Shown here piece after piece: positions 1 to 52,165 of a DNA stretch of 52,165 bases. The stretch comes from Saccoglossus kowalevskii. Taxonomy: Eukaryota > Hemichordata > Enteropneusta > Harrimaniidae. A program made the position numbers and the translations under genes. Position 1 is the stretch's first letter, and every line of letters begins with the position of its first letter. Below the pieces are notes generated by a model. The model ran no database searches. It was not told where the DNA came from and saw only the letters and a list, made by a program, of their open reading frames with translations. The stretch is from positions 1-52,165 of the forward strand of contig NW_003123617.1 in NCBI RefSeq assembly GCF_000003605.2. The letters are read 5' to 3'.

Positions 1-316
1 TAGGCTGATATTCGTCAGAATTGCATGTCGTTTAAAGCTTCGGCAAGGCAAAAAATCCCAGGAAAAAGTTGGTATGTACGGTGGAATAAAAATGTTGATA
101 AGCCTACTACATGTGGTATTCCCAGCAGGTCTCCCATGCAAGTACTAACCACGCCCGATGCATCCTAACTTCTGTGATCTGACAAGAACTGGTGTTTTCT
201 ACAATGGTTTGGCAGTAGGCTGAATATTCGTCGGAATTGGATGTAATTTAATACTGCGGCTAGGCAACAAATCCCGGGAAAAAGTTTGTATGTACAGTGG
301 AATAAAAATGTTGATA

Positions 317-436
317 AGCCTACTGCTCGTGGTATTCCCAGCAGGTCTCCCATGCAAGTACTAACCACGCCCGATGCAGCTTAACTTCTATGATCGGACG
401 AGAACTGGTGTATTCTACAATGGTTTGCAGTAGGCT
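317..436 (-). rRNA. 5S rRNA-like unit, class G
   Basis: A class G unit with a single-base deletion in plus TTTGCAG (usual TTTGGCAG), giving 120 nt. The same deletion-tagged unit recurs near 6,842, 8,137 and 17,820, which marks shared ancestry. Helix I is perfect. Its spacer has GGAATAATAATG, which interrupts the downstream T5 found in other classes, and the monomer ends at a CATGTAAGTAC variant of the C-box anchor. Confidence 0.5.
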
Positions 437-531
437 GAATATTCGTCGGAATTGGATGTAATTTAATATTCCGGCTAGGCAACAAATCCCGGGAAAAAGT
501 TTGTATGTACGGTGGAATAATAATGTTGATA

Positions 532-652
532 AGCCTACTGCTCGTGGTATTCCCAGCCGGTCTCCCATGTAAGTACTAACCATGCCTGATGCAGATTAAC
601 TTCAGTGATCGGACGAGAACTGGTGTATTCAGCATTGGCTTAGCAGTAGGCT
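532..652 (-). rRNA. 5S rRNA-like unit, class H
   Basis: A class H unit recognised by plus ATTCAGCATTGGCTTAGC. On the RNA strand this gives CCAATGCTGAATAC, which is nearer to the CCA..GCTGAATAC of invertebrate 5S, as I recall it, than the CCATTGCAGAATAC of other classes. However, helix II then mismatches its own 3' strand (CTGCAT). The anchor reads CATGTAAGTAC, so the helix IV strand is ACATGG instead of GCATGG. Its plus-strand head is CATGCCTGATGCAGATT. Confidence 0.5.
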
Positions 653-675
653 GAATATTCGTCGGAATTGGATGT

Positions 676-683
676 AATTTAAT
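676..683 (-). promoter_or_regulatory. TATA-like AT element about -25 to -32 upstream of a 5S-like unit
   Basis: On the minus strand ATTAAATT lies about 25-32 nt upstream of the 5' end of the unit at 532-652. The motif recurs at the same distance in most monomers with the GTAATTTAATAC spacer (classes C, F, G and H). Upstream TATA-like elements near this distance are known in 5S genes of plants, insects and some fungi. In class D and I spacers the equivalent is CATTTAAT in plus. This may simply be AT-rich spacer. Confidence 0.3.
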
Positions 684-746
684 ACTTCGGCTAGGCAACA
701 AATCCCGAGAAATGTTAGTATGTACAGTGGAATTAAAATGTTGATA

Positions 747-867
747 AGCCTACTGCAGGTGGTATTCTCAGCCGGTCTCCCATGCAAGTACTAACCACGC
801 CCGATGCAGCTTAACTTCAGTGATCCGACGAGAACTGGTGTATTCTGCAATGGTTTGGCAGTAGGCT
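747..867 (-). rRNA. 5S rRNA-like unit, class I
   Basis: A representative of the class whose plus-strand head reads GATCCGACGAG. The 3' terminus (CTGCAGG in plus) and 5' terminus (GCAGTAGGCT in plus) give a perfect 10-bp helix I. The adjoining spacer is the most distinctive of the array, with an A-run followed by TTGGGTTAAAGTTAATATG. This class marks the start of the higher-order repeat used in this annotation. No expression evidence exists in the sequence. Confidence 0.55.
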
Positions 868-963
868 GAATATTCGTCGGAATTCGATGTCATTTAATGC
901 TACGGCTATGCAAAAAAAATTTGGGTTAAAGTTAATATGTAATGTGGAATAAAAATGTTGATG

Positions 964-1084
964 AGCCTACTGCACGTGGTATTCCCAGCCAGTCTCCCAT
1001 GCAAGTACTAACCACGCCTGATGCAGCTTAACTTCAGTGATCGGACAAGAACTGGTGTGTTCTGCAATGGTTTGACAGTAGGCT
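964..1084 (-). rRNA. 5S rRNA-like unit, class A
   Basis: A representative of class A, recognised in plus orientation by GGACAAGAACTGGTGTGTTC and TTTGACAGTAGG. Helix I ends with a U-G wobble (AGCCTACTGT against GCAGTAGGCT) but is otherwise complete. The downstream spacer (TCAGAATTGCATGTCG) is shared with class E. Class A almost always follows class I along the plus strand. Confidence 0.55.
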
Positions 1085-1179
1085 GAATATTCGTCAGAAT
1101 TGCATGTCGTTTAACGCTTCGGCAAGGCAAAAAATCCCGGGAAAAATTTGGTATGTACGGTGGAATAAAAATGTTGATA

Positions 1180-1300
1180 AGCCTACTGCAGGTGGTATTC
1201 CCAGCCGGTCTTCCATGCAAGTACTAACCACGCGCGATGCAGCTTAACTTCAGTGATCGGACGAGAACTGGTGTATTCTGCAATGGCTTGGCAGTAGGCT
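1180..1300 (-). rRNA. 5S rRNA-like unit, class B
   Basis: A representative of class B, which has the class C 5' end (TAGGCTGGATATTCG in plus) but the class A spacer middle (AACGCTTCGGCAAGGC). That suggests B arose by exchange between A-type and C-type monomers. In many B copies the anchor that ends the monomer is AGTTCT instead of AGTACT (for example 1436 and 2945), which changes the RNA in the conserved TTAGTACTTG segment of the next unit. Confidence 0.5.
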
Positions 1301-1395
1301 GGATATTCGTCGGAATTGGATGAAATTTAACGCTTCGGCAAGGCAAAAAATCCCGGGAAAATGTTGGTATGTACGGTGGAATAAAAATGTTGATA

Positions 1396-1516
1396 AGCCT
1401 ACTGCACATGGTATTCCCAGCCGGTATTCCATGCAAGTTCTAACCACGCCCGATGCAGCTTAACTTCAGTGATCGGACGAGAACTGGTGTATTCTGCAAT
1501 GGTTTGGCAGTAGGCT
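1396..1516 (-). rRNA. 5S rRNA-like unit, class C (AGAACT anchor variant)
   Basis: This full-length unit has the sequence AAGTTCTAAC in plus in place of AAGTACTAAC, so the RNA would carry UUAGAACUUG where 5S normally has UUAGUACUUG. The changed base lies in the conserved loop E/helix IV segment. Helix I is intact. The following spacer leads into the GATGAGCCTAATGCACG terminus and a GTCTGCC variant of the C-box (GGCAGACC on the RNA strand). Confidence 0.45.
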
Positions 1517-1611
1517 GGATATTCGTCGGAATTGGATGTAATTTAATACTTCGGCTAGGCAAAAAATCCCGGGAAAATGTTAGTATGTACGGTGGAATAA
1601 AAATGTTGATG

Positions 1612-1732
1612 AGCCTAATGCACGTGGTATTCCCAGCCGGTCTGCCATGCAAGTACTCACCACGCCCGATGCAGCTTAACCACAGTGATCGGACGAAAAC
1701 TGGTGTATTCTGCAATGGTTTGGCTGTTGGCT
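1612..1732 (-). pseudogene. 5S rRNA-like unit, class D, helix I degraded
   Basis: Class D units have plus-strand GGCTGTTGGCT at the 5S 5' end and CCTAATGCACG at the 3' end. The RNA termini AGCCAACAGC and GCATTAGGCT leave about three mismatches in helix I. The GTCTGCC variant also alters the C-box. The adjoining spacer is unique to this class (GATTATTCGTCCGACTTG and AAAATCATGGG). The class recurs regularly (for example 2297, 3161, 12218, 13926, 15870 and 47635 anchors), so the change has spread by array turnover. I call it pseudogene-like on structural grounds only. Confidence 0.5.
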
Positions 1733-2472
1733 GATTATTCGTCCGACTTGTATGTCATTTAATGCTTCGTCTAGGCAAAAAATCATGGGAAAAAGATAGT
1801 ATGTAATGTGGAATAAAAATGTTGATGAGCCGACTGAACGTGGTATTCCCAGCCAGTCTCCCGTGCAAGAACTAACCACGCCCGATGCAGCTTACTTCAG
1901 TGATCGGACGAGAACTGGTGTGTTCTGCAATGGTTTGACAGTAGCTGACTATTCGTCAGAATTGCATGTCGTTTAACGCTTCGGCAAGGCAAAAATCCCG
2001 GGAAAAAGTTGGTATGTACGGTGGAATAAAAATGTTGATAAGCCTAATGCATGTGGTATTCCCAGCAGGTCTCCCATGCAAGTACTAACCACGCCCGATG
2101 CATCTTAACTTATGTGATCGGACGAGAACTGGTGTATTCTGCAATGGTTTGGCAGTAGGCTGGATATTCGTTGGAATTGGATGTAATTTAATACTTCGGC
2201 TAGGCAAAAAATCCCGGGAAAAAGTTAGTATGTACGGTGGAATAAAAATGTTGATGAGCCTAATGGACGTGGTATTCCCAGCCGGTCTGCCATGCAAGTA
2301 CTAACCACGCCCGATGCAGCTTAACTACAGTGATCGGACGAGAACTGGTGTATTCTGCAATGGTTTGGCTGTTGGCTGATTATTCGTCCGACTTGTATGT
2401 CATTTAATGCTTCGTCTAGGCAAAAAATCATGGGAAAAATTTAGTATGTAATGTGGAATAAAAATGTCGATG

Positions 2473-2593
2473 AGCCGACTGAACGTGGTATTCCCAGCCG
2501 GTCTCCCGTGCAAGAACTAACCACGCCCGATGCGCCTTAACTTCAGTGATCGGACGAGAACTGGTGTGTTCTGCAACGGTTTGACAGTAGGCT
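2473..2593 (-). pseudogene. 5S rRNA-like unit, class E, helix I degraded
   Basis: Class E units have the 3' terminus AGCCGACTGAACGTGG and the anchor AGAACT in plus, with head GATGCGCC. Helix I (AGCCTACTGT against TTCAGTCGGCT) has two mismatches. The GCAAGAAC variant places a change in the conserved GUACUUG segment, and the ...CCCGTGC variant replaces the helix IV GCATGG by GCACGG. The unit is still full length. E regularly follows D along the plus strand. Confidence 0.5.
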
Positions 2594-4200
2594 GAATATT
2601 CGTCAGAATTGCATGTCGTTTAAGGCTTCGACAAGGCAAAAAATCCCGGGAAAAAGTTGGTATGTACGGTGGAATAAAAATGTTGATAAGCCTACTGCAG
2701 GTGGTATTCCCAGCCGGTCTTCCATGCAAGTACTAACCACGCGCGATGCAGCTTAACTTCAGTGATCGGACGAGAACTGGTGTATTCTGCAATGGCTTGG
2801 CAGTAGGTTGGATATTCGTCGGAATTGGATGTAATTTAACGCTTCGGCAAGGCAAAAAATCCCGGGAAAATGTTGGTATGTACGGTGGAATAAAAATGTT
2901 GATAAGCCTACTGCACATGGTATTCCCAGCCGGTATTCCATGCAAGTTCTAACCACGCCCGATGCAGCTTAACTTCAGTGATCGGACGAGAACTGGTGTA
3001 TTCTGCAATGGTTTGGCAGTAGGCTGGATATTCGTCGGAATTGGATGTAATTTAATACTTCGGCTAGGCAAAAAATCCCGGGAAAATGTTAGTATGTACG
3101 GTGGAATAAAAATGTAGATGAGCCTAATGCACGTGGTATTCCCAGCCGGTCTGCCATGCAAGTACTCACCACGCCCGATGCAGCTTAACCACAGTGATCG
3201 GACGAGAACTGGTGTATTCTGCAATGGTTTGGCTGTTGGCTGATTATTCGTCCGACTTGTATGTCATTTAATGCTTCGTCTAGGCAAAAAATCATGGGAA
3301 AAAGTTAGTATGTAATGTGGAATAAAAATGTTGATGAGCCGACTGAACGTGGTATTCCCAGCCGGTCTCCCGTGCAAGAACTAACCACGCCCGATGCGGC
3401 TTAACTTCAGTGATCGGACGAGAACTGGTGTGTTCTGCAATGGTTTGACAGTAGGCTGAATATTCGTCAGAATTGCATGTCGTTTAAGGCTTCGGCAAGG
3501 CAAAAAATCCAGGGAAAAATTTGGTATGTACGGTGGAATAAAAATGTTGATAAGCCTACTGCATGTGGTATTCCCAGCAGGTCTCCCATGCAAGTACTAA
3601 CCACGCCCGATGCAGCTTAACTTCTGTGTTCGGACGAGAACTGGTGTATTCTACAATGGTTTGGCAGTAGGCTGAATATTCGTCGGAATTGGATGTAATT
3701 TGATACTTCGGCTAGGCAACAAATCCCGGGAAAAAGTTTGTATGTACGGTGGAATTAAAATGTTGATAAGCCTACTGCTCGTGGTATTCCCATCAGGTCT
3801 CCCATGCAAGTACTAACCACGCCCGATGCAGCTTAACTTCTGTGTTCGGACGAGAACTGGTGTATTCTACAATGGTTTGGCAGTAGGCTGAATATTCGTC
3901 GGAATTGGATGTAATTTAATACTTCGGCTAGGCAACAAATCCCGGGGAAAAGTTTGTATGTACGGTGGAATAATAATGTTGATAAGCCTACTGCTCGTGG
4001 TATTCCCAGCCGGTCTCCCATGTAAGTACTAACCATGCCTGATGCAGATTAACTTCAGTGATCGGACGAGAACTGGTGTGTTCTGCAATGGTTTGACAGT
4101 AGGCTGAATATTCGTCAGAATTGCATGTCGTTTAAAGCTTCGGCAAGGCAAAAAATCCCGGGAAAAAGTTGGTATGTACGGTGGAATAAAAATGTTGATA

Positions 4201-4321
4201 AGCCTACTACATGTTGTATTCCCAGCAGGTCTCCCATGCAAGTACTAACCACGCCCGATGCATCCTAACTTCTGTGATCTGACAAGAACTGGTGTATTCT
4301 ACAATGGTTTGGCAGTAGGCT
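4201..4321 (-). rRNA. 5S rRNA-like unit, class F
   Basis: A representative of class F: plus-strand head GATGCATCCTAAC, then GATCTGACAAG and TTCTACAATGG. The RNA has GTTAGGATGCATCG in the A-box area, which departs from the consensus GTTAAGCTGCATCG, and helix II is weakened. The C-box has AGCAGGTCTCCC in plus, so the helix IV strand is CCTGC instead of CCGGC. The downstream spacer carries AACAAATCCCGGG and GTACAGTGG. Most other F copies have a perfect helix I, but this one has CTACATG at its 3' end. Confidence 0.45.
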
Positions 4322-5104
4322 GAATATTCGTTGGAATTGGATGTAATTTAATACTGCGGCTAGGCAACAAATCCCGGGAAAAAGTTTGTATGTACAGTGG
4401 AATAAAAATGTTGATAAGCCTACTACATGTGGTATTCCCAGCCAGTCTCCCATGCAAGTACTAACCACGCCTGATGCAGCTTAACTTCAGTGATCGGACA
4501 AGAACTGGTGTGTTCTGCAATGGTTTGACAGTAGGCTGAACGTTCGTCAGAATTGCATGTCGTTTAACGCTTCGGCAAGGCAAAAAATCCCGCGAAAAAG
4601 TTGGTATGTACGGTGGAATAAAAATGTTGATAAGCCTACTGCAGGATTTATTCCCAGCCGGTCTTCCATGCAAGTACTAACCACGCGCGATGCAGCTTAA
4701 CATCAGTGATCGGACGAGAACTGGTGTATTCTGCAATGGTTTGGCAGTAGGCTGGATATTCGTCGGAATTGGATGTAATTTAATACTTCGGCTAGGCAAA
4801 AAATCCCGGGAAAAAGTTGGTATGTACGGTGGAATAAAAATGTTAATAAGCCTACTGCACATGGTATTCCCAGCCGGTCTCCCACGCAAGTACTAACCAC
4901 GCCCGATGCAGCTTAACTTCAGTGATCGGACGAGAACTGGTGTGTTCTGCAATGGTTTGACAGTAGGCTGACTATTCGTCAGAATTGCATGTCGTTTAAC
5001 GCTTCGGCAAGGCAAAAAATCCCGGGAAAAATTTGGTATGTACGGTGGAATAAAAATGTTGATAAGCCTACTACATGTGGTATTCCCAGCAGGTCTCCCA
5101 TGCA

Positions 5105-5320
5105 AGTACTAACCACGCCCGATGCATCCTAACTTCTGAGATCTGACAAGAACTGGTGTATTCTACAATGGTTTGGCAGTAGGCTGAATATTCGTCCGAC
5201 TTGTATGTCATTTAATGCTTCGTCTAGGCAAAAAATCATGGGAAAAAGTTAGTATGTAATGTGGAATAAAAATGTTGATGAGCCGACTGAACGTGGTATT
5301 CCCAGCCGGTCTCCCGTGCA
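5105..5320. repeat. Chimeric monomer F/D
   Basis: The 5S-like 5' half is class F (GATCTGACAAG-like, TTCTACAATGG, TTTGGCAGTAGGCTGAATATTCG). After the shared ATTCGTC the spacer switches to class D (CGACTTGTATGTCATTTAATG and ATCATGGG). Confidence 0.7.
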
Positions 5321-6185
5321 AGAACTAACCACGCCCGATGCAGCTTAACTTCAATGATCGGACGAGAACTGGTGTGTTCTGCAATGGTCTGACAGTAGGC
5401 TGAATATTCGTCAGAATTGCATGTCGTTTAAAGCTTCGGCAAGGCAAAAAATCCCGGGAAAAAGTTGGTATGTACGGTGGAATAAAAATGTTGATAAGCC
5501 TACTACATGTGGTATTCCCAGCAGGTCTCCCATGCAAGTACTAACCACGCCCGATGCATCCTAAATTCTGTGATCTGACAAGAACTGGTGTATTCTACAA
5601 TGGTTTGGCAGTAGGCTGAATATTCGTCGGAATTGGATGTAATTTAATACTGCGGCTAGGCAACAAATCCCGGGAAAAAGTTTGTATGTACAGTGGAATA
5701 AAAATGTTGATAAGCCTACTGCTCGTGGTATTCCCAGCAGGTCTCCCATGCAAGTACTAACCACGCCCGATGCAGCTTAACTTCTGTGATCGGACGAGAA
5801 CTGGTGTATTCAGCATTGGCTTAGCAGTAGGCTGAATATTCGTCGTAATTGGATGTAATTTAATACTTCGGCTAGGCAACAAATCCCGGGAAATGTTAGT
5901 ATGTGCGGTGAAATATGAATGTTGATAAGCCTACTGCAGGTGGTATTCCCAGCCGGTCTCCAATGCAAGTACTAACCACGCCCGATGCAGCTTAACTTCA
6001 GTGATCCGACGAGAACTGGTGTATTCTGCAATGGTTTGGCAGTAGGCTGAATATTCGTCGGAATTGGATGTCATTTAATGCTACGGCTAGGCAAAAAAAA
6101 ATTTGGGTTAAAGTTAATATGTAATGTGGAATAAAAATGTTGATGAGCCTACTGCACGTGGTATTCCCAGCCAGTCTCCCATGCA

Positions 6186-6401
6186 AGTACTACCCACGCC
6201 TGATGCAGCTTAACTTCAGTGATCGGACAAGAACTGGTGTGTTCTGCAATGGTTTGACAGTAGGCTGGATATTCGTCGGAATTGGATGTAATTTAACGCT
6301 TCGGCAAGGCAAAAAATCCCGGGAAAATGTTGGTATGTTCGGTGGAATAAAAATGTTGATAAGCATACTGCACATGGTATTCCCAGCCGGTCTTCCATGC
6401 A
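6186..6401. repeat. Chimeric monomer A/B
   Basis: The head and 5S-like 5' end are class A (GGACAAGAAC, GTGTGTTC, TTTGACAGTAGG). The spacer from GGCTGGATATTCGTCGG onward is class B. The switch falls within the 5S 5' terminus. Confidence 0.7.
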
Positions 6402-6499
6402 AGTTCTAACCACGCGCGATGCAGCTTAACTTCAGTGATCGGACGAGAACTGGTGTATTCTGCAATGGTTTGCAGTAGCTGGATATTCGTCGGATTGGA

Positions 6500-7160
6500 T
6501 GTAATTTAATACTTCGGCTAGGCAAAAAATCCCGGGAAAAAGTTAGTATGTACGGTGGAATAAAAATGTTGATAAGCCTACTGCTCGTGGTATTCCCAGC
6601 AGGTCTCCCATGCAAGTACTAACCACGCCCGATGCAGCTTAACTTCTGTGATCGGACAAGAACTGGTGTATTCTACAATGGTTTGGCAGTAGGCTGAATA
6701 TTCGTCGGAATTGGATGTTATTTAATACTGCGACTAGGCAACAAATCCCGGGAAAAAGTTTGTATGTACAGTGGAATAAAAATGTTGATAAGCCTACAGC
6801 TCGTGGTATTCCCAGCAGGTCTCCCATGCAAGTACTAACCACGCCGATGCAGCTTAACTTCTGTGATCGGACGAGAACTGGTGTATTCTACAATGGTTTG
6901 CAGTAGGCTGAATATTCGTCGGAATTGGATGTAATTTAATATTTCGGCTAGGCAACAAATCCCGGGAAAAAGTTTGTATGTACGGTGGAATAATAATGTT
7001 GATAAGCCTACTGCTCGTAGTATTCCCAGCCGGTCTCCCATGTAAGTACTAACCATGCCTGATGCAGATTAACTTCAGTGATCGGACGAGAACTGGTGTA
7101 TTCAGCATTGGCTTAGCAGTAGGCTGAATATTCGTCGGAATTGGATGTAATTTAATACTT
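6500..7160. repeat. Recent segmental duplication, copy 1 (offset 1,295 bp)
   Basis: This block of F, G and start of H monomers matches 7795-8455. Both carry the same rare changes: GTTATTTAATACTGCG, CCTACAGCTCG, the CACGCCGATG deletion, the TTTGCAG deletion, and CTCGTAGTATTCCC. Shared deletions make common origin by unequal exchange of six monomers the simplest explanation. Confidence 0.85.
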
Positions 7161-7794
7161 CGGCTAGGCAACAAATCCCGAGAAATGTTAGTATGTACAG
7201 TGGAATTAAAATGTTGATAAGCCTACTGCAGGTGGTATTCTCAGCCGGTCTCCCATGCAAGTACTAACCACGCCCGATGCAGCTTAACTTCAGTGATCCG
7301 ACGAGAACTGGTGTATTCTGCAATGGTTTGGCAGTAGGCTGAATATTCGTCGGAATTCGATGTCATTTAATGCTACGGCTATGCAAAAAAAAATGTGGGT
7401 TAAAGTTAATATGTAATGTGGAATAAAAATGTTGATGAGCCTACTGCACGTGGTATTCCCAGCCAGTCTCCCATGCAAGTACTAACCACGCCTGATGCAG
7501 CTTAACTTCAGTGATCGGACAAGAACTGGTGTGTTCTGCAATGGTTTGACAGTAGGCTGAATATTCGTCAGAATTGCATGTCGTTTAACGCTTCGGCAAG
7601 GCAAAAAATCCCGGGAAAAATTTGGTATGTACGGTGGAATAAAAATGTTGATAAGCCTACTGCAGGTGGTATTCCCAGCCGGTCTTCCATGCAAGTACTA
7701 ACCACGCGCGATGCAGCTTAACTTGAGTGATCGGACGAGAACTGGTGTATTCTGCAACGGTTTGGCAGTAGGCTGGATATTCGTTGGAATTGGA

Positions 7795-8455
7795 TGTAAT
7801 TTAATACTTCGGCTAGGCAAAAAATCCCGGGAAAAAGTTAGTATGTACGGTGGAATAAAAATGTTGATAAGCCTACTGCTCGTGGTATTCCCAGCAGGTC
7901 TCCCATGCAAGTACTAACCACGCCCGATGCAGCTTAACTTCTGTGATCGGACAAGAACTGGTGTATTCTACAATGGTTTGGCAGTAGGCTGAATATTCGT
8001 CGGAATTGGATGTTATTTAATACTGCGGCTAGGCAACAAATCCCGGGAAAAAGTTTGTATGTACAGTGGAATAAAAATGTTGATAAGCCTACAGCTCGTG
8101 GTATTCCCAGCAGGTCTCCCATGCAAGTACTAACCACGCCGATGCAGCTTAACTTCTGTGATCGGACGAGAACTGGTGTATTCTACAATGGTTTGCAGTA
8201 GGCTGAATATTCGTCGGAATTGGATGTAATTTAATATTTCGGCTAGGCAACAAATCCCGGGAAAAAGTTTGTATGTACGGTGGAATAATAATGTTGATAA
8301 GCCTACTGCTCGTAGTATTCCCAGCCGGTCTCCCATGTAAGTACTAACCATGCCTGATGCAGATTAACTTCAGTGATCGGACGAGAACTGGTGTATTCAG
8401 CATTGGCTTAGCAGTAGGCTGAATATTCGTCGGAATTGGATGTAATTTAATACTT
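7795..8455. repeat. Recent segmental duplication, copy 2 (offset 1,295 bp)
   Basis: Partner of 6500-7160, with the same set of private variants. After about 8,460 the H monomer diverges (AGGCACAAATCC and GTTTTTATG). The duplicate continues from there into a class F monomer instead of class I. Confidence 0.85.
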
Positions 8456-10779
8456 CGGCTAGGCACAAATCCCGAGAAATGTTTTTATGTACAGTGGAAT
8501 TAAAATGTTGATAAGCCTACTGCTCGTGGTATTCCCAGCAGGTCTCACATGCAAGTACTAACCACGCCCGATGCAGCTTAACTTCAGTGATCGGACGAGA
8601 ACTGGTGTATTCTACAATGGTTTGGCAGTAGGCTGAATATTCGTCGGAATTGGATGTAATTTAATACTGCGGCTAGGCAACAAATCCCGGGAAAAAGTTT
8701 GTATGTACAGTGGAATAAAAATGTTGATAAGCCTACTGCTCGTGTTATTCCCAGCAGGTCTCCCATGCAAGTACTAACCACGCCCGATGCAGCTTAACTT
8801 CTGTTATCGGACGAGAACTGGTGTATTCTACAATGGTTTGGCAGTAGGCTGAATATTCATCGGAATTGGATGTAATTTAATACTTCGGCTAGGCAACAAA
8901 TCCCGGGAAAATGTTTGTATGTACGGTGGAATAATAATGTTGATAAGCCTACTGCTCGTGGTATTCCCAGCCGGTCTCCCATGTAAGTACTAACCATGCC
9001 TGATGCAGATTAACTTCAGTGATCGGACGAGAACTGGTGTATTCAGCATTGGCTTAGCAGTAGGCTGAATATTCGTCGTAATTGGATGTAATTTAATACT
9101 TCGGCTAGGCAACAAATCCCGGGAAATGTTAGTATGTACGGTGAAATATAAATGTCGATAAGCCTACTGCAGGTGGTATTCCCAGCCGGTCTCCCATGCA
9201 AGTACTAACCACGCCCGATGCAGCTTAAATTCGGTGATCCGACGAGAACTGGTGTATTCTGCAATGGTTTGGAAGTAGGCTGAATATTCGTCGGAATTGG
9301 ATGTCATTTAATGCTACGGCTAGGCAAACAATCATGTGTAAATGTTAATATGTAATGTGGAATAAAAATGTTGATGAGCCTACTGCACGTGGTATTCCCA
9401 GCCAGTCTCCCATGCAAGTACTAACCACGACTGATGCAGCTTAACTTCAGTGATCTGACAAGAACTGGTGTGTTCTGCAATGGCTTGACAGTAGCCTGAT
9501 TATTCGTCGGAATTGGATGTAATTTAACGCTTCGGCAAGGCAAAAAATCCCGGGAAAAAGTTGGTATGTACGGTGAATAAAAATGTTGATAAGCCTAATG
9601 CATGTGTATTCTCAGCAGTCTTCCCATGCAAAGTACTATTCCACGCCCGATGCATCTTAACTTCTGTGATCGGACAAGAACTGGTGTATTTTACAATGGT
9701 TTGGCAGTAGGCTGAATATTCGTCGTAATTGGATGTAATTTAACACTTCGGCTAGGCAACAAATCCCGGGAAATGTTAGTATGTACGGTGAAATATAAAT
9801 GTTGATACGCCTACTGCAGGTGGTATTCCCAGCCGGTCTCCCATACAAGTACTAAGCACGCCCGATGCAGCTTAACTTCAGTGATCCGACGAGAACTGGT
9901 GTATTCTGCAATGGTTTGGCAGTAGGCTGAATATTCGTCGGAATTGGATGTCATTTAATGCTACGGCTAGGCAAAAAAAAAATGGGTTAAAGTTAATATG
10001 TAATGTGGAATAAAAATGTTGATGAGCCTACTGCACGTGGTATTCCCAGCCAGTCTCCCATGCAAGTACTAACCACGCCTGATGCAGCTTAACTTCAGTG
10101 ATCGGACAAGAACTAGTGTGTTCTGCAATGGTTTGACAATAGGCTGAATATTCGTCAGAATTGCATGTCGTTTAACGCTTCGGCAAGGCAAACAATCCCG
10201 GGAAAATGTTGGTATGTACGGTGGAATAAAAATGTTGATAAGCCTACTGCACATGGTATTCCCAGCCGGTCTTCCATGCAAGTTCTAACCACGCGCGATG
10301 CAGCTTAACTTCAGTGATCGGACGAGAACTGGTGTATTCTGCAATGGTTTGGCAGTAGGCTGGATATTCGTCGGAATTGGATGTAATTTAATACTTCGGC
10401 TAGGCAAAAAATCCCGGGAAAAAGTTAGTATGTAATGTGGAATAAAAATGTTGATGAGCCTAATGCACGTGGTATTCCCAGCCGGTCTGCCATGCAAGTA
10501 CTAACCACGCCCGATACAGCTTAACTACAGTGATCGGACGAGAACTGGTGTATTCTGCAATAGTTTGGCTGTTGGCTGATTATTCGTCCGACTTGTATGT
10601 CATTTAAATCTTCGTCTAGGCAAAAAATCATGGGAAAAAGTTAGTATGTAATGTGGAATAAAAATGTTGATGAGCCTAATGCATGTGGTATTCCCAGCAG
10701 GTCTCCCATGCACGTACTAACCACGCCCTATGCATCTTAACTTCTGTGATCGGACGAGAACTGGTGTATTCTGCAATGG

Positions 10780-10940
10780 TTTGGAAGTAGCTGGATATTC
10801 GTTGGAATTGGATGTAATTTAATACTTCGGCTAGGCAAAAATCCCGGGAAAAGTTAGTATGTACGGTGAATAAAAATGTTGATGAGCCTATGGACGTGGT
10901 ATTCCCAGCCGGTCTGCCTTGCAAGTACTACCACGCCCGA
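10780..10940. other. Deletion-rich patch in class C monomer
   Basis: Many one-base losses are clustered here, mostly within runs of identical bases: GAAGTAGCTGG, CAAAAATCCC, GGTGAATAAAAATG, GCCTATGGACG and TACTACCACGCC. Neighbouring monomers are intact. This looks more like uncorrected read error than biological decay. Confidence 0.6.
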
Positions 10941-42448: not shown

Positions 42449-43960
42449 AGTACTAACCACGCCCGATGCAGCTTAACTTCAGTGATCCGACGAGAACTGG
42501 TGTATTCTGCAATGGTTTGGCAGTAGGCTGAATATTCGTCGGAATTGGATGTCATTTAATGCTACGGCTAGGCAAAAAAAAATTTGGGTTAAAGTTAATA
42601 TGTAATGTGGAATAAAAATGTCGATCAACCTACTGCACGTGGTATTCCCAGCCAGTCTCCCATGCAAGTACTAACCACGCCTGATGCAGCTTAACTTCAG
42701 TGATCGGACATGAACTGGTGTGTTCTGCAATGGTTTGACAGTAGGCTGAACATTCGTCAGAATTGCATGTCGTTTAACGCTTCGGCAAGGCAAAAAATCC
42801 CGGGAAAAAGTTGGTATGTACGGTGGAATAAAAATGTTGATAAGCCTACTGCAGGTGGTATTCCCAGCCGGTCTTCCATGCAAGTACTAACCACGCGCGA
42901 TGCAGCTTAACTTCAGTGATCGGACGAGAACTGGTGTATTCTGCAATGGTTTGGCAGTAGGCTGGATATTCGTCGGAATTGGATGTAATTTAATACTTCG
43001 GCTAGGCAAAAAATCCCGGGAAAACGTTAGTATGTACGGTGGAATAAAAATGTTGATGAGCCTAATGCACGTGGTATTCCCAGCCGGTCTGCCATGCAAG
43101 TACTAACCACGCCCGATGCAGCTTAACTACAGTGATCGGACTAGAACTGGTGTATTCTGCAATGGTTTGGCTGTTGGCTGATTATTCGTGCGACTTGTAT
43201 GTCATTTAATGCTTCGTCTAGGCCAAAAATCATGGGAAAATTTAGTATGTAATGTGGAATAAAAATGTTGATGAGCCAACTGAACGTGGTATTCCCAGCC
43301 GGTCTCCCGTGCAAGAACTAACCACGCCCGATGCGCCTTAACTTCAGTGAACGGACGAGAACTGGTGTTTTCTGCAATGGATTGACAGTAGGCTGAATAT
43401 TCGTCAGAATTGCATGTCGTTTAAAGCTTCGGCAAGGCAAAAAATCCCGGGAAAAATTTTGTTTGTACAGTGGAATAAAAATGTTGATAAGCCTACGGCT
43501 CGTGGTATTCCTAGCAGGTCTCCCATGCATGTACTAACCACGCCCGATGCAGCTTAACTTCTGTGATCGGACGAGAACTGGTGTATTCTACAATGGTTTG
43601 GCAGTAGGCTGAATATTCGTCGGAATTGGATGTAATTTAATACTTCGGCTAGGCAACAAATCCCGGGAAAAAGTTGGTATGTACGGTGGAATAATAATGT
43701 TGATAAGCCTACTGCTCGTGGTATTTCCAGCCGGTCTCCCATGTAAGTACAAACCATGCCTGATGCAGATTAACTTCAGTGATCGGACGAGAACTGGTGT
43801 ATTCAGCATTGGCTTAGCAGTAGGCTGAATATTCGTCGTAATTGGATGTAATTTAATACTTCGGCTAGGCAACAAATCCCGGGAAATGTTAATATGTACG
43901 GTGAAATATAAATGTTGATAAGCCTACTGCAGGTGGTATTCCCAGCCGGTCTCCCATGCA
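42449..43960. repeat. 7-monomer higher-order repeat, copy 3 (1,512 bp)
   Basis: Monomers start at 42449 (I), 42667 (A), 42883 (C), 43099 (D), about 43314 (E), 43530 (G) and 43746 (H). Relative to copy 2 only the third slot changes class (B to C). Shared rare variants with copy 2 include TCGATSAACC-type changes near the I terminus, GTGAACGGACGAG in the E slot, and the GGTGTTTTCTGC variant. A third period begins at 43,961 but departs from the pattern after two monomers. Confidence 0.8.
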
Positions 43961-44249
43961 AGTACTAACCACGCCCGATGCAGCTTAACTTCAGTGATCC
44001 GACGAGAACAGGTGTATTCTGCAATGGTTTGGCAGTAGGCTGAATATTCGTCGGAATTGGATGTCATTTAATGCTACGGCTAGGCAAAAAAAAAATTGGG
44101 TAAAAGTTAATATGTAATGTGGAATAAAAATGTCGATGAACCTACTGCACGTGGTATTCCCAGCCAGTCTCCCATGCAAGTACTAACCACGCCTGATGCA
44201 GCTTAACTTCAGTGATCGGACAAGAACTGGTGTGTTCTGCAATGGTTTG

Positions 44250-44405
44250 ACAGTAGCTGAACATTCGTCAGAATTGCATGTCGTTTAACGCTTCGGCAAA
44301 GCAAAAAATCTCGGGAAAAAGTTGGTATGTACGGTGGATAAAAATGTTGATAAGCCTACTGCAGTGGTATTCCAGCCGGTCTCCCATGCAAGTACTAACA
44401 CGCCC
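44250..44405. other. Deletion-rich patch in class A monomer
   Basis: AGTAGCTGAAC, GGTGGATAAAAATG, TGCAGTGGTATTCCAGCC and ACTAACACGCCC are run-shortening changes in one monomer at the point where the 7-monomer period breaks down. Confidence 0.5.
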
Positions 44406-44568
44406 GATGCAGCTTAACTTCAGTGATCGGACGAGAACTGGTGTATTCTGCAATGGTTTGGCAGTAGGCTGAATATTCGTCGGAATTGGATGTCATTTAA
44501 TAATACGGCTAGGCAAAAAAAAAATTTGGGTTAAAGTTAGTATGTAATGTGGAATAAAAATGTTGATG

Positions 44569-44689
44569 AGCCTACTGCACGTGGTATTCCCAGCCGGTCT
44601 CCCATGCAAGTACTAACCACGCGCGATGCAGCTTAACTTCAGTGATCGGACGAGAACTGGTGTATTCTGCAATGGTTTGGCAGTAGGCT
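44569..44689 (-). rRNA. 5S rRNA-like unit with canonical loop C
   Basis: A full-length 121-nt 5S-like unit on the minus strand. Helix I is perfect (AGCCTACTGC with GCAGTAGGCT), loop C keeps CTCGTCCGATC, and the C-box keeps GCATGGGAGACCGGC. A CGCGC variant at about 44620 alters the helix II/V junction (GATCGCGCG instead of GATCGGGCG region on the RNA strand), so it is slightly less canonical there than the unit at 46945-47065. The flanking spacers are of the I class upstream in plus coordinates and C-like downstream. Confidence 0.6.
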
Positions 44690-46931
44690 GGATATTCGTC
44701 GGAATTGGATGTCATTTAATGCTACGGCTAGGCAAAAAATCATGGGAAAAAGTTTGTATGTACAGTGGAATAATAATGTTGATAAGCCTACTGCTCGTGG
44801 TATTCCCAGCCGGTCTCCCATGTAAGTACTAACCATGCCTGATGCAGATTAACTTCAGTGATCGGACGAGAACTGGTGTATTCAGCATTGGCTTAGCAGT
44901 AGGCTGAATATTCGTCGGAATTGGATGTAATTTAATACTTCGGCTAGGCAACAAATCCCGAGAAATGTTAGTATGTACGGTGGAATTAAAATGTTGATAA
45001 GCCTACTGCAGGTGGTATTCTCAGCCGGTCTCCCATGCAAGTACTAACCACGCCCGATGCAGCTTAACTTCAGTGATCCGACGAGAACTGGTGTATTCTG
45101 CAATGGTTTGGCAGTAGGCTGAATATTCGTCGGAATTGGATGTCATTTAATGCTACGGCTATGCAAAAAAAAATTTGGGTTAAAGTTAATATGTAATGTG
45201 GAATAAAAATGTTGATGAGCCTACTGCACGTGGTATTCCCAGCCAGTCTCCCATGCAAGTACTAACCACGCCTGATGCAGCTTAACTTCAGTGATCGGAC
45301 AAGAACTGGTGTGTTCTGCAATGGTTTGACAGTAGGCTGAATATTCGTCAGAATTGCATGTCGTTTAACGCTTCGGCAAGGCAAAAAATCCCGGGAAAAA
45401 TTTGGTATGTACGGTGGAATAAAAATGTTGATAAGCCTACTGCAGGTGGTATTCCCAGCCGGTCTTCCATGCAAGTACTAACCACGCGCGATGCAGCTTA
45501 ACTTCAGTGATCGGACGAGAACTGGTGTATTCTGCAATGGTTTGGCAGTAGGCTGGATATTCGTCGGAATTGGATGTAATTTAATACTTCGGCTAGGCAA
45601 AAAATCCCGGGAAAAAGTTGGTATGTACGGTGGAATAAAAATGTTAATAAGCCTACTGCATATGGTATTCCCAGCCGGTCTCCCATGCAAGTACTAACCA
45701 CGCCCGATGCAGCTTAACTTCAGTGATCGGACGAGAACTGGTGTGTTCTGCAATGGTTTTACAGTAGGCTGAATATTCGTCAGAATTGCATGTCGTTTAA
45801 CGCTTCGGCAAGGCAACAAATCCCGGGAAAAAGTTGGTATGTACGGTGGAATAAAAATGTTGATAAGCCTAATGCATGTGGTATTCCCAGCAGGTCTCCC
45901 ATGCAAGTACTAACCATGCCTGATGCATCTTAATTTCTGTGATCGGACGAGAACTTGTGTATTCTGCAATGGTTTGGCAGTAGGCTGGATATTCGTTGGA
46001 ATTGGATGTAATTTAATGCTTCGTCTAGGCAAAAAATCATAGGAAAAAGTTAGTATGTAATGTGGAATAAAAATGTTGATGAGCCGACTGAACGTGGTAT
46101 TCCCAGCCGGTCTCCCGTGCAAGAACTAACCACGCCCGATGCGCCTTAACTTCAGTGATCGGACGAGAACTGGTGTGTTCTGCAATGGTTTGACAGTAGG
46201 CTGAATATTCGTCAGAATTGCATGTCGTTTAACGCTTCGGCAAGGCAAAAAATCCCGGAAAAAAGTTGGTATGTACAATGGAATAAAAATGTTGATAAGC
46301 CTACTGCATGTGGTATTCCCAGCAGGTCTCCCATGCAAGTACTAACCACGCCCGATGCATCTTAACTTCTGTGATCTGACAAGAACTGGTGTATTCTACA
46401 ATGGTTTGGCAGTAGGCTGAATATTCGACGGAATTGGATGTAATTTAATACTTCGGCTAGGCAACAAATCCCGGGAAAAAGTTTGTATGTACAGTGGAAT
46501 AAAAATGTTGATAAGCCTACTGCTCGTGGTATTCCCAGCAGGTCTCCCATGCAAGTACTAACCACGCCCGATGCAGCTTAACTTCTGTGATCGGACGAGA
46601 ACTGGTGTATTCTACAATGGTTTGGCAGTAGGCTGAATATTCGTCGGAATTGGATGCAATTTAATACTTCGGCTAGGAAACAAATCCCGGGAAAAAGTTT
46701 GTATGTATGGTGGAATAAAAATGTTGATAAGCCTACTGCTCGTGGTATTCCCAGCCGGTCTCCCATGTAAGTACTAACCATGCCTGATGCAGATTAACTT
46801 CAGTGATCGGACGAGAACTGGTGTATTCAGCATTGGCTTAGCAGTAGGCTGAATATTCGTCGGAATTGGATGTAATTTAATACTTCGGCTAGGCAACAAA
46901 TCCCGGGAAATGTTAGTATGTACGGTGAAAT

Positions 46932-46936
46932 AAAAA
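46932..46936 (-). terminator. Candidate Pol III T5 terminator after 5S-like unit
   Basis: A TTTTT run on the minus strand starts about 9 nt beyond the 5S-like 3' end (GGCTTATC then ACATTTTTATT region). RNA polymerase III ends 5S transcripts at T-runs of four or more just downstream. The run (plus AAAAA in GGAATAAAAATG) is present in most monomers. It is interrupted to AATAATAATG in class G and some other copies. Confidence 0.4.
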
Positions 46937-46944
46937 TGTTGATA

Positions 46945-47065
46945 AGCCTACTGCACGTGGTATTCCCAGCCGGTCTCCCATGCAAGTACTAACCACGCCC
47001 GATGCAGCTTAACTTCAGTGATCCGACGAGAACTGGTGTATTCTGCAATGGTTTGGCAGTAGGCT
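46945..47065 (-). rRNA. 5S rRNA-like unit, cleanest copy (perfect helices I and V)
   Basis: This 121-nt minus-strand unit aligns end to end with eukaryotic 5S rRNA. The terminal strands AGCCTACTGC and GCAGTAGGCT are exact complements (helix I, 10 bp). CGTGGT and ACCACG form helix V. GC(A)TGG and CCGGC around the GAGA loop form helix IV with the usual bulged A and U-G pair. TGCAG and CTGCA form helix II, and CAGT and ACTG form helix III. The loop E strands TTAGTA and GGGAAT are intact. Against human 5S it has one extra base in the 5' part, near helix II. Loop A reads CAAACCA where canonical 5S has CATACCA. Loop C here has GTCGGAT instead of the GTCCGAT of most copies. A product would be a component of the large ribosomal subunit if transcribed and incorporated. 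It could equally be a well-preserved satellite monomer, since nothing here shows expression. Confidence 0.7.
46967..47014 (-). promoter_or_regulatory. 5S internal control region (A-box, IE, C-box)
   Basis: On the RNA-sense strand, the positions matching the Xenopus/human box A (50-64), intermediate element (67-72) and box C (80-97) are 47000-47014, 46992-46997 and 46967-46984. They read AGTTAAGCTGCATCG, CGTGGT and TGCATGGGAGACCGGCTG. Box C differs from the human TGGATGGGAGACCGCCTG only at two bases, which pair with each other in helix IV. The C-box is among the least variable parts of the monomer across the array. TFIIIA/TFIIIC binding is expected from the 5S family but not shown here. Confidence 0.6.
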
Positions 47066-48490
47066 GAATATTCGTCGGAATTGGATGTCATTTAATGCTA
47101 CGGCTAGGCAAAAAAAAATGTGGGTTAAAGTTAATATGTAATGTGGAATAAAAATGTCGATGAACCAACTGCACGTGGTATTCCCAGCCAGTCTCCCATG
47201 CAAGTACTAACCACGCCTGATGCAGCTTAACTTCAGTGATCGGACAAGAACTGGTGTGTTCTGCAATGGTTTGACAGTAGGCTGAACATTCGTCAGAATT
47301 GCATGTCGTTTAACGCTTCGGCAAGGCAAAAAATCCCGGGAAAAAGTTGGTATGTACGGTGGAATAAAAATGTTGATAAGCCTACTGCACATGGTATTCC
47401 CAGCCGGTCTTCCATGCAAGTTCTAACCACGCGCGATGCAGCTTAACTTCAGTGATCGGACGAGAACTGGTGTATTCTGCAATGGTTTGGCAGTAGGCTG
47501 GATATTCGTCGGAATTGGATGTAATTTAATACTTCGGCTAGGCAAAAAATCCCGGGAAAAAGTTAGTATGTACGGTGGAATAAAAATGTTGATGAGCCTA
47601 ATGCACGTGGTATTCCCAGCCGGTCTGCCATGCAAGTACTAACCACGCCCGACGCAGGTTAACTACAGTGATCGGACGAGAACTGGTGTATTCTGCAATG
47701 GTTTGGCTGTTGGCTGATTATTCGTCCGACTTGTATGTCATTTAATGCTTCGTCTAGGCCAAAAATCATGGGAAAAAGTTAGTATGTAATGTGGAATAAA
47801 AATGTTGATGAGCCGACTGAACGTGGTATTCCCAGCCGGTCTCCCGTGCAAGAACTAACCATGCCCGATGCGCCTTAACTTCAGTGAACGGACGAGAACT
47901 GGTGTGTTCTGCAATGGTTTGACAGTAGCTGAATATTCGTCAGAATTGCATGTCGTTTAAAGCTTCGCAAGGCAAAAATCCGGGAAAAGTTTTGTATGTA
48001 CAGTGAATAAATGTGAATAAGCCTACTGCTCGTGGTATTCCCAGCAAGTCTCCCATGCATGTACTAACCACGCCCGATGCAGCTTAACTTCTGTGATCGG
48101 ACGAGAACTGGTGTATTCTACAATGGTTTGGCAGTAGGCTGAATATTCGTCGGAATTGGATGTAATTTAATACTTCGGCTAGGCAACAAATCCCGGGAAA
48201 AAGTTTGTATGTACGGTGGAATAATAATGTTGATACGCCTACTGCTCGTGGTATTCCCAGCCGGTCTCTCATGTAAGTACTAACCATGCCTGATGCAGAT
48301 TAACTTCAGTGATCGGACGAGAACTGGTGTATTCTACAATGGTTTGGCAGTAGGCTGAATATTCGTCGGAATTGGATGTAATTTAATACTTCGGCTAGGC
48401 AACAAATCCCGGGAAATGTTAGTATGTACGGTGAAATATAAATGGTGATAAGCCTACTGCAGGTGGTATTCCCAGCCGGTCTCCCATGCA
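46985..48490. repeat. 7-monomer higher-order repeat, copy 4
   Basis: The order is I-A-C-D-E(degraded)-G-H, 1,506 bp, starting at 46985, 47203, 47419, 47635, 47851, about 48057 and 48272. The E slot carries GTGAACGGACGAG like copies 2 and 3. Several single-base deletions in that monomer explain the shortfall from 1,512 bp. Confidence 0.7.
47920..48035. other. Deletion-rich patch in class E monomer
   Basis: AGTAGCTGAATATTCG, AGCTTCGCAAGGC, AAAATCCGGG, CAGTGAATAAATGTGAATAAGCC show clustered losses in one monomer. They make the surrounding 7-monomer period 6 bp shorter than 1,512. Confidence 0.6.
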
Positions 48491-50005
48491 AGTACTAACC
48501 ACGCCCGATGCAACTTAACTTCAGTGATCCGACGAGAACTGGTGTATTCTGCAATGGTTTGGCAGGAGGCTGAATATTCGTCGGAATTAGATGTCATTTA
48601 ATGCTACGGCTAGGCAAAAAAAAAATTGGGTTAAAGTTAATATGTAATGTGGAATAAAAATGTTGATGAACCTACTGCACGTGGTATTCCCAGCCAGTCT
48701 CCCATGCAAGTACTAACCACGCCTGATGCAGCTTAACTTCAGTGATCGGACAAGAACTGGTGTGTTCTGCAATGGTTTGACAGTAGGCTGAACATTCGTC
48801 AGAATTGCATGTCGTTTAACGCTTCGGCAAGGTAAAAAATCCCGGGAAAAGGTTGGTATGTACGGTGGAATAAAAATGTTGATAAGCCTACTGCAGGTGG
48901 TATTCCCAGCCGGTCTTCCATGCAAGTACTAACCACGCGAGATGCAGCTTAACTTCAGTGATCGGACGAGAACTGGTGTATTCTGCAATGGTTTGGCAGT
49001 AGGCTGGATATTCGTCGGAATTTGGATGTAATTTAACGCTTCGGCAAGGCAAAAAATCCCGGGAAAAAGTTGGCATGTACGGTGGAATAAAAATGTTGAT
49101 AAGCCTACTGCACATGGTATTCCCAGCCGGTCTTCCATGCAAGTTCTAACCACGCGCGATGCAGCTTAACTTCAGTGATCGGACGAGAACTGGTGTATTC
49201 TGCAATGGTTTGGCAGTTGGCTGGATATTCGTCGGAATTGGATGTAATTTAATACTTCGGCTAGGCAAAAAATCCCGGGAAAAAGTTAGTATGTACGGTG
49301 GAATAAAAATGTTGATGAGCCTAATGCACGTGGTATTCCCAGCCGGTCTGCCATGCAAGTACTAACCACGCCCGATGCAGCTTAACTACAGTGATCGGAC
49401 GAGAACTGGTGTATTCTGCAATGGTTTGGCTGTTGGCTGATTATTCGTCCGACTTGTATGTCATTTAATGCTTCGTCTAGGCCAAAAATCCCGGGAAAAA
49501 GTTAGTATGTAATGTGGAATAAAAATGTTGATGAGCCAACTGAACGTGGTATTCCCAGCCGGTCTCCCGTGCAAGAACTAACCACGCCCGATGCGCCTTA
49601 ACTTCAGTGAACGGACGAGAACTGGTGTTTTCTGCAATGGTTTGACAGTAGGCTGAATATTCGTCAGAATTGCATGTCGTTTAAAGCTTCGGCAAGGCAA
49701 AAAAAAATTGGGTTAAAGTTAATATGTAATGTGGAATAAAAATGTTGATGAGCCTACTGCACGTGGTATTCTCAGCCAGTCTCCCATGCAAGTACTAACC
49801 ACGCCTGATGCAGCTTAACTTCAGTGATCGGACAAGAACTGGTGTATTCTACAATGGTTTGGCAGTAGGCTGAATATTCGTCGGAATTGGATGTAATTTA
49901 ATACTTCGGCTAGGCAACAAATCCCGGGAAATGTTAGTATGTACGGTGAAATATAAATGTTGATAAGCCTACTGCAGGTGGTATTCCCAGCTGGTCTCCC
50001 ATGCA
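48491..50005. repeat. 7-monomer higher-order repeat, copy 5, rearranged
   Basis: The order is I-A-B-C-D-E/I chimera-H over about 1,515 bp. It retains both B and C but has lost G, and the E slot (49574-49790) switches to a class I spacer. It is therefore a seven-monomer period with a different internal make-up, consistent with unequal exchange between out-of-register copies. Confidence 0.65.
49574..49790. repeat. Chimeric monomer E/I
   Basis: The first part is class E (GATGCGCC, GTGAACGGACGAG, GTGTTTTC, TTTGACAGTAGG, TTTAAAGCTTCGGCAAGGC). At the A-run it changes to a class I spacer (AAAAAAAATTGGGTTAAAG) and the CCAGTCTCCC terminus. Confidence 0.7.
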
Positions 50006-52165
50006 AGTACTAACCACGCCCGATGCAGCTTAACTTCAGTGATCCGACGAGAACAGGTGTATTCTGCAATGGTTTGGCAGTAGGCTGAATATTCGTCGGA
50101 ATTGGATGTCATTTAATGCTACGGCTAGGCAAACAAAAAAATTGAGTTAAAGTTAATATGTAATGTGGAATAAAAATGTCGATGAACCTACTGCACGTGG
50201 TATTCCCAGCCAGTCTCCCATGCAAGTACTAACCTCGCCTGATGCAGCTTAACTTCAGTGATTGGACAAGAACTGGTGTGTTCTGCAATGGTTTGACAGT
50301 AGGCTGAACACTCGTCAGAATTGCATGTCGTTTAACGCTTCGGCAAGGCAAAAAATCCCGGGAAAAAGTTGGTATGTACGGTGGAATAAAAATGTTGATA
50401 AGCCTACTGCAGGTGTTATTCCCAGCCGGTCTTCCATGCAAGTACTAACCACGCGCGATGCAGCTTAACTTCAGTGATCGGACGAGAACTGGTGTATTCT
50501 GCAATGGTTTGGCAGTAGCTGGAAATTCGTCGGAATTGGATGTAATTTATACTTCGGCTAGGCAACAAATCCCGGGAAAAAGTTTGTATGTACAGTGGAA
50601 TTAAAATGTGATAAGCCTACTGCTCGTGGTATTCCCAGCAGGTCTCCCATGCAAGTACTAACCACGCCCAATGCAGCTTAACTTCTGTGTTCGGACGAGA
50701 ACTGGTGTATTCTACAATGGTTTGGCAGTAGGCTGAATATTCGTCGGAATTGGATGTAATTTAATACTTCGGCTAGGCAACAAAACCCGGGAAACACTTT
50801 GTATGTACGGTGGAATAATAATGTTGATAAGCCTACTGCTCGTGGTATTCCTAGCCGGTCTCCCATGTAAGTACTAACCATGCCTGATGCAGATTAACTT
50901 CAGTGATCGGACGAGAACTGGTGTATTCAGCATTGGCTTAGCAGTAGGCTGAATATTCGTCGGAATTGGATGTAATTTAATACTTCGGCTAGGCAACAAA
51001 TCCCGGGAAATGTTAGTATGTACGGTGGAATAAAAATGTTGATAAGCCTACTGCAGGTGGTATTCCCAGCCGGTCTCCCATGCAAGTACTAACAACGCCC
51101 GATGCCTTAACTTCAGTGATCTGACGAGAACTGGTGTATTCTGCAATGGTTTGGCAGTAGGCTGAATATTCGTCGGAATTGGATGTAATTTAATACTGCG
51201 GCTAGGCAACAAATCCCGGGAAAAAGTTTGTATGTACGGTGGAATAATAATGTTGATAAGCCTACTGCTCGTGGTATTCCCAGCCGGTCTCCCATGTAAA
51301 GTACTAACCATGCCCGATGCGGCTTAACTTCAGTGATCGGACGAGAACTGGTGTATTCTGCAATGGTTTGGCAGTAGGCTGGATATTCGTCGGAATTGGA
51401 TGTAATTTAACGCTTCGGCAAGGCAAAAAATCCCGGGAAAATGTTGGTATGTACGGTGGAATAAAAATGTTGATAAGCCTACTGCACATGGTATTCCCAG
51501 CCGGTATTCCATGCAAGTTCTAACCACGCCGGATGCAGCTTAACTTCAGTGATCGGACGAGAACTGGTGTATTCTGCAATGGTTTGGCAGTAGGCTGGAT
51601 ATTCGTCGGAATTGGATGTAATTTAATACTTCGGCTAGGCAAAAAATCCCGGGAAAAGTTAGTATGTACGGTGGAATAAAAATGTTGATGAGCATAATGC
51701 ACGTGGTATTCCCAGCCGGTCTGCCATGCAAGTACTAACCACGCCCGATGCAGCTTAACTACAGTGATCGGACGAGAACTGGTGTATTCTGCAATGGTTT
51801 GGCTGTTGGCTGATTATTCGTCCGACTTGTATGTCATTTAATGCTTCGTCTAGGCAAAAAATCATGGGAAAAAGTTAGTATGTAATGTGGAATAAAAATG
51901 TTGATGAGCCGACTGAACGTGGTATTCCCAGCCGGTCTCCCGTTCAAGAACTAACCACGCCCGATTCAGCTTAACTTCAGTGATCGGACGAGAACTGGTG
52001 TGTTCTGCAATGGTTTGACAGTAGGCTGACTATTCGTCAGAATTGCATGTCGTTTAACGCTTCGGCAAGGCAAAAAATCACGGGAAAAAGTTGGTATGTA
52101 CGGTGGAATAATAATGTTGATAGCCTAATGCATGTGGTATTCCCAGCCCGGTCTCCCGTGCAAGA

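Follow-up and report, generated by a model that had tools for sequence, protein, structure and literature searches.

Tandem satellites descended from 5S ribosomal RNA (rRNA) genes are known in frogs and fish. One of them is PcP190 of hyloid frogs, a tandem repeat that, as characterized in its source, combines a 5S-like conserved region of ~120 bp with a region unlike known 5S spacers. It occurs as several types per genome, separate from the 5S genes, and is transcribed in two species (PMC11675491). Another, 5SHindIII (HmaSat03) of Hoplias malabaricus, is likewise derived from 5S ribosomal DNA (rDNA). It was once proposed to be centromeric, but the account given in PMC11369246 now favors another satellite for that role. 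Here we examine a stretch of DNA from the hemichordate Saccoglossus kowalevskii, the entire 52,165-bp contig C1639 (the window) of a genome assembly of 572 Mb in 4,830 contigs. This DNA is a satellite with a 216-bp monomer that contains a 5S-like module. We propose, with a probability of roughly three in four, that it is a 5S-derived satellite that diverged under constraint on the RNA fold and was then amplified and left to decay.

A first-pass annotation, made from the sequence alone, had named PcP190 and 5SHindIII as comparison families, and both are the right kind of satellite. The monomer is not filed under PcP190, from whose description it is set apart by phylum and by unit length (~190 bp in frogs versus 216 bp here). 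The two also differ in 5S similarity, which is ~70% for the PcP190 conserved region (~79%–80% among its types; PMC11675491) versus ~92% to the host 5S here. 5SHindIII, which we compare by its description only, belongs to another phylum. Judged by sequence, the hemichordate example seems to have an unusually close, structure-keeping 5S part.

Some arrays of 5S genes are also similar in form. The 5S rDNA of Esox pikes has a ~220-bp unit with a spacer of mostly 95–116 bp, a very high copy number (>20,000) and mixed spacer variants within arrays. As presented in that source, the pike copies are potentially functional, with an unvaried control region and no significant erosion (PMC5437419), whereas erosion is plain in the satellite. 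In Tribolium, truncated pseudogene copies are interspersed in arrays of short units (121 + 71 bp in T. castaneum), but these arrays are described as containing working genes (PMC11202950), which in Saccoglossus lie elsewhere. A literature search covering few subscription journals returned no hemichordate 5S-derived satellite, no report joining Saccoglossus 5S rRNA with a satellite and no hemichordate 5S rDNA.

A 5S-like satellite array fills the window

Tandem Repeats Finder (TRF) reported one array (positions 1–52164, period 216, 241.7 copies, 87% matches), and a wraparound alignment resolved the window into 241 full and two partial monomers, all in the same orientation. The full monomers are 198–254 bp long, mostly 215–216 bp, and have a mean identity to the consensus of 93.2% (range 88.0%–97.2%) and a mean pairwise identity of 89.5%. 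Each unit comprises a 5S module of 120 bp and, after it, a spacer of 96 bp. These results bear out the first-pass description of a 52-kb satellite array.

The same annotation had placed a 5S relative on the minus strand of every ~216-bp monomer and had named a covariance-model search with the Rfam family RF00001 as the check. When the window was searched by cmscan with all Rfam families, 241 matches exceeded the gathering scores. The best 150 of these 241, which are the ones described here, agree with that claim: all are to RF00001 on the minus strand, cover model positions 1–120 of 120 and are spaced ~216 bp apart. They score 77.7–97.7 bits, compared with a gathering score of 38, and the best E-value is 3.9e-20. 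The two stretches that had been quoted as typical of 5S rRNA, one in box C and the other, GGGAATACC, before the 3′ end, are both contained in the monomer consensus. A tRNA search of the window found none.

Across the genome, a 30-base junction pattern (up to three mismatches) matches 3,818 times (2,028 and 1,790 on the two strands), 218 of them in the window, while the reversed control has no matches. Given this difference and the best E-value, a chance origin of the 5S resemblance is negligible. Scaling these counts yields ~4,200 monomers, or 0.9 Mb, which is probably an underestimate, since arrays of this kind are collapsed in assemblies. The satellite is present in at least 39 contigs. The 38 of known length are all 10–52 kb, the window being the longest, and all 13 contig-end tiles that were read (seven contigs) are satellite. 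A pattern confined to the 5S part matches 3,872 times in the genome and 223 times in the window, which is not in excess over the junctions and indicates that dispersed 5S-only copies are not common.

Shorter units of ~118 bp occur amid 216-bp monomers at three loci (L016, L051, and L053, in contigs C576, C981, and C2147), and ~118-bp spacing was also seen in contigs C111, C404, C588, and C629. In this unit, the spacer breaks off after TTTTTATT and the 5S part resumes at GCAG, the result of a ~98-bp deletion with ATT at both ends. Contig C1116 carries, twice (L012 and L013), rearranged units with only pieces of the 5S part and spacer.

Working 5S genes lie elsewhere in the genome

Real 5S genes were found in contigs separate from the satellite (C3485, C2212, and C3801), with a top score of 112.9 bits in a covariance-model scan that scored 47 places among 18,217 first-look candidates. 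The gene units are ~1,139 bp long in C3485, a 231-kb contig, and ~1.3–1.6 kb in C2212 and C3801. A BLAST search with the real gene gave at least 40 places at 99%–100% identity (40 of 123 candidates scored), and no gene–satellite intermediate was present among these 40. The genes are located elsewhere, are more homogeneous and have other spacers. The array is therefore not the main 5S gene locus, which fits the first-pass view of a 5S-derived satellite. The satellite spacer has no likeness to either real 5S spacer (14–37 of 100 shuffles reach the observed score). When it is compared with 5S itself, the score is reached by four of 100 shuffles on the plus strand and 51 of 100 on the minus strand.

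Two working-looking types of 5S rDNA coexist in this genome, represented by L001 and L003 (C3485 versus C2212/C3801). Their 119-nt coding parts are identical apart from single-base variants, and their spacers are largely different (local score 42, compared with a maximum of 38 in 100 shuffles). TTTT follows immediately at the 3′ end in both real gene units that were read.

Early changes preserve the 5S fold

Nine substitutions and one insertion separate the 5S consensus of the satellite from the real gene, and all 34 pairs of the Rfam structure form in both. Eight of the nine substitutions fall in stems. At three pairs both bases were replaced (gene to satellite: 7/113 from GC to TA, 18/62 from CG to TA, and 31/48 from GC to AT), in the first case by a pair of transversions, and single changes at 20/60 and 26/53 converted G-U into Watson–Crick pairs.

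The significance of this pattern was assessed by simulations in which the numbers of CpG sites, non-CpG sites, transitions, and transversions were held fixed, with coarse CpG matching. From gene to satellite, three double changes arise with P = 0.00012 and all 34 pairs are kept with P = 0.0025. When pair 18/62, which adjoins the insertion, is left out, these values become 0.0012 and 0.0074. The reverse simulation, from satellite to gene, gives 0.00002 and 0.014.

The internal control region, which we take to consist of box A, the intermediate element, and box C (gene positions 50–97), differs in the consensus only at site 62, with box C and the intermediate element unchanged. That only one of nine changes lies there is only suggestive of protection during the early divergence.

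To date these changes relative to the monomer classes, we used a sample of 649 monomers: 241 from the window and 408 from 17 other contigs. Eleven units of <80% identity (rearranged or short), three loci that coincide or overlap with the window (L025, L027, and L035) and same-contig overlaps were excluded. Clustering at a cut-off of 0.07 yielded 116 clusters, and class names are given to the larger of these only. At the nine sites, the base of the real gene is present in 0–9 of the 649 monomers, except at site 20 (56 monomers, classes C and H), and three monomers have a gap at the inserted site. The rarity of the gene base suggests that the early changes are older than most monomer classes, and thus that most gene–satellite differences predate them.

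Later variation largely disregards pairing

Variants within the arrays behave differently. Pairing is preserved by 29 of 170 rare stem variants (≤5%), a share like that among all possible single changes (36 of 204). The early stem changes all end in a pair (8/8), compared with 6 of 16 common variants (P = 0.006) and with the rare ones (P = 2e-6). The simulation is the fairer test, because this contrast counts the double changes in their final state, which favors the early set. Double compensatory cells are fewer than expected (6 versus a mean of 23 in 200 shuffles), and unpaired cells are more numerous (1,573 observed versus 1,542); for rare variants alone, observed and shuffled numbers are equal (510 versus 509). 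The density of rare variants (≤2%) per site and monomer is no lower in the 5S part (0.0135–0.0149) than in the spacer (0.0119).

The first-pass annotation had called the 5S relative complete. This holds for the consensus but not for most copies, which have on average 2.7 broken pairs and have none broken in only 34 of 649 monomers. The control region is identical to the consensus in 67 and has at least one change in 582. Most copies of a functional 5S gene class would keep both. A T run lies within 20 nt downstream in 581 monomers, but at the canonical 3′ end in three. Control region, all pairs and T run are jointly intact in 10, and two match the 5S consensus exactly. The copies therefore do not appear to be maintained as genes, with the reservation that the 5S part has fewer common variants than the spacer.

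The rare variants are rich in transversions: non-CpG sites in the 5S part have 632 of them and 406 transitions, which is unusual for animal DNA. This excess may be a property of the genome or of the assembly consensus.

A proposed two-phase history and its alternatives

The best explanation for these patterns is a history in two phases. In the first, the satellite founder and today's 5S genes would have diverged by the differences listed above, with selection acting on the RNA fold along one branch or both. In the second, a founder unit with an unrelated 96-bp spacer would have been amplified into long head-to-tail arrays, presumably by unequal exchange. Since then, RNA pairing would have had little or no influence on how the 5S part changed.

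Several results weigh against this history. Of the nine early substitutions, six fall on CpG sites of the real gene and four are CpG transitions; such a concentration favors paired changes and was matched only coarsely in the simulations. The paired changes may also sit wholly or partly on the branch of the gene; a 36-base 5S pattern, used to look for an outgroup, had no matches in viral contigs and prokaryote genomes. Among later variants, the common ones keep pairing in a proportion (6 of 16) nominally above that of all possible single changes (36 of 204). Common variants (>5%) are also fewer per site in the 5S part (0.21–0.24) than in the spacer (0.43). A rare/common comparison has odds of 2.1 at the 5% cut (P = 0.006; 0.015 without CpG), is borderline at 2% (P = 0.058; 0.022 without CpG) and is absent at 1% and 0.5%, so that the cut-off decides whether this test points to selection on the 5S part. 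The 5S part may have been under some constraint while or after it was amplified, and repeat consensus errors could add to the rare variants.

The strongest alternative reverses the polarity of the first phase: the satellite would keep the ancestral 5S, and the working gene would have changed with compensation. The reverse simulation is as extreme for double changes. However, the real gene has T at site 12, where the Rfam consensus (CAUA) has U, and that change is therefore probably on the satellite branch. At 31/48, moreover, the 5S of echinoderms and insects appears to share the state of the gene. We regard this polarity as unlikely, if ahead of the other alternatives.

A less probable scenario is an ordinary 5S pseudogene array shaped by drift and CpG decay, in which the paired changes arose by chance. 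Amplified pseudogenes are common, and the share of early changes at CpG sites is as this scenario would have it. However, three double compensatory changes among nine are expected with P ~1e-4 even when CpG and the transition/transversion ratio are matched. One of them (7/113) is a transversion pair, and the rare later variants lack such a pattern.

It is quite improbable that the monomers represent a second 5S rRNA gene class that still works and was strongly amplified, as exemplified by the oocyte-type 5S genes of Xenopus. The intact pairing of the consensus, its unchanged box C and intermediate element, and the frequent downstream T run are all compatible with function, and its minimum-energy fold is near that of the real 5S (−47.1 versus −50.5 kcal/mol). 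The likeness to pike 5S in unit and spacer length is also striking. In contrast, few copies retain the consensus, all pairs or the joint set of functional features, rare variants ignore pairing, and hardly any copy has a T run at its canonical 3′ end. Furthermore, the pike control region is described as free of single-nucleotide polymorphisms (PMC5437419), whereas most copies here are changed in that region.

The two remaining explanations are very improbable. A tandemized 5S-derived short interspersed element (SINE) of the SINE3 type would account for the anatomy of a 5S head and an unrelated tail, but 5S ends are not in excess over junctions (in counts made with no target-site-duplication search and with single copies not sought individually), and the 38 satellite contigs of known length, of 39 named, are all 10–52 kb. 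A contaminant or assembly artifact would fit with short contigs of which none was seen joined to other DNA, but at least 39 contigs with matches on both strands and partly different monomer classes carry the satellite, and its 5S part shares 92% identity with the assembly's own 5S, the gene array of which sits in a 231-kb contig.

A more specific and tentative idea, which we think has rather less than an even chance, is that acorn worms once had a second functional 5S rRNA class with a short spacer, for example a germline type, and that the satellite is its fossil. This class would have changed with compensation at three stem pairs, been amplified to thousands of copies and then been released from selection. 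A few intact copies or transcription by RNA polymerase III (Pol III) may persist in the germline.

As for present activity, the arrays are best read as now acting as a structural satellite, because they occupy short unplaced contigs and extend to every sampled end. A heterochromatic or pericentromeric placement would be consistent with this reading. The 5S transcription machinery may still bind to a portion of the copies, and Pol III could initiate on some of them, giving an RNA of ~134 nt, since box C and the intermediate element are unchanged in the consensus and a T run follows most monomers. A ribosomal role of single copies is unlikely.

Higher-order structure and local duplication

Monomer classes follow one another in a strongly non-random order (mutual information 1.62 bits, compared with a maximum of 0.44 in 500 shuffles). 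A class chain C-I-A-(N)-D-F-B-G-(H)-C recurs, with five complete cycles of 1.7–2.2 kb. Mean identity by lag is almost flat, with small peaks at 7, 14, 28, and 42 but none at 21 or 35, which indicates that the higher-order repeat is irregular. Four of the ten largest classes (C, F, G, and H) are found only in the window, I has 23 of its 24 members there, and E and J never occur in it. The nearest relative lies inside the window for 98% of window monomers; in the 17 other contigs, from each of which far fewer monomers were sampled, the own-contig share ranges from 0 to 92%. From this distribution and the window's 98%, its higher-order repeat looks array-specific.

At least one local duplication is recent (Table 1). 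Local duplication since amplification would have produced the higher-order repeats and, together with unequal exchange, would keep the arrays long and locally similar, as the lag, class, nearest-relative, and duplication data suggest.

Table 1. Coordinates of the array and of selected features within the window
Feature	Coordinates	Strand	Basis
Single head-to-tail array, ~241.7 monomers, period 216 bp	1..52165	− (5S part)	cmscan, TRF, wraparound alignment
Longest higher-order repeat found, 10 monomers (C-I-A-N-D-F-B-G-H-C), 2,155 bp	6..2160	−	
Top-scoring 5S-like module in window, 97.7 bits	4849..4968	−	cmscan
Recent local duplication: 6485–7180 again 1,295 bp on, ≥97% identity per 200-bp window	6485..8475		
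Example of 8-monomer higher-order repeat (I-A-D-F-B-G-H-C), 1,728 bp	46202..47929	−	
Representative monomer, 215 bp, 97% identical to consensus	46850..47064	−	
Spacer of representative monomer (~96 bp in consensus)	46850..46944	−	
T5 run starting 9 nt beyond 5S 3′ end, possible Pol III terminator	46932..46936	−	
5S-like module of representative monomer, RF00001 model 1–120, 97.5 bits	46945..47064	−	cmscan
Internal control region position (gene positions 50–97) in representative monomer	46968..47015	−	Arithmetic from cmscan coordinates

The mitochondrial contig of the assembly

The assembly also includes a mitochondrial contig (C4830, 17,037 bp), in which COX1 was identified by Pfam and aligns full-length to solved COX1 chains. 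As read from translated frames, COX1 is inverted, ND2 precedes ND1, ND5 lies beside CYTB and ND6 is on the opposite strand. The nine ATA codons within the COX1 alignment face Ile (5), Val (2), Leu (1), and Met (1), and its lone AAA faces a conserved Lys. The mitochondrial DNA of S. kowalevskii is reported to differ from that of Balanoglossus by two steps, a COX1 inversion and a transposition of ND1 or ND2, and to read AUA as Ile and AAA as Lys (PMC3121625). In gene order and code, C4830 agrees with this description, so that a Saccoglossus-type acorn worm is the most likely source of the assembly. A second report also gives AAA as Lys in Saccoglossus and places nd5 next to cob in hemichordates (PMC2697986). 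The end of the contig (L041:7290–8037) has ~190-bp tandem repeats with runs of G and A and is probably the control region.

Implications

The origins of satellites are seldom traceable, and here the consensus would show much of the state of the founder. The same alignment would show the switch from constraint at the RNA level to near-neutral decay. The Saccoglossus satellite adds an independent case from an invertebrate deuterostome to the examples from fish and frogs. It would also represent the stage of erosion in satellite formation that is foreseen, but was not seen, in the pike study (PMC5437419, section 26). The similarity of the pike and Saccoglossus units (~220 bp versus 216 bp) makes it testable whether 5S units with short spacers are prone to a satellite fate. 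For genome annotation, counts of RF00001 in animal assemblies can be inflated by satellites of this kind.

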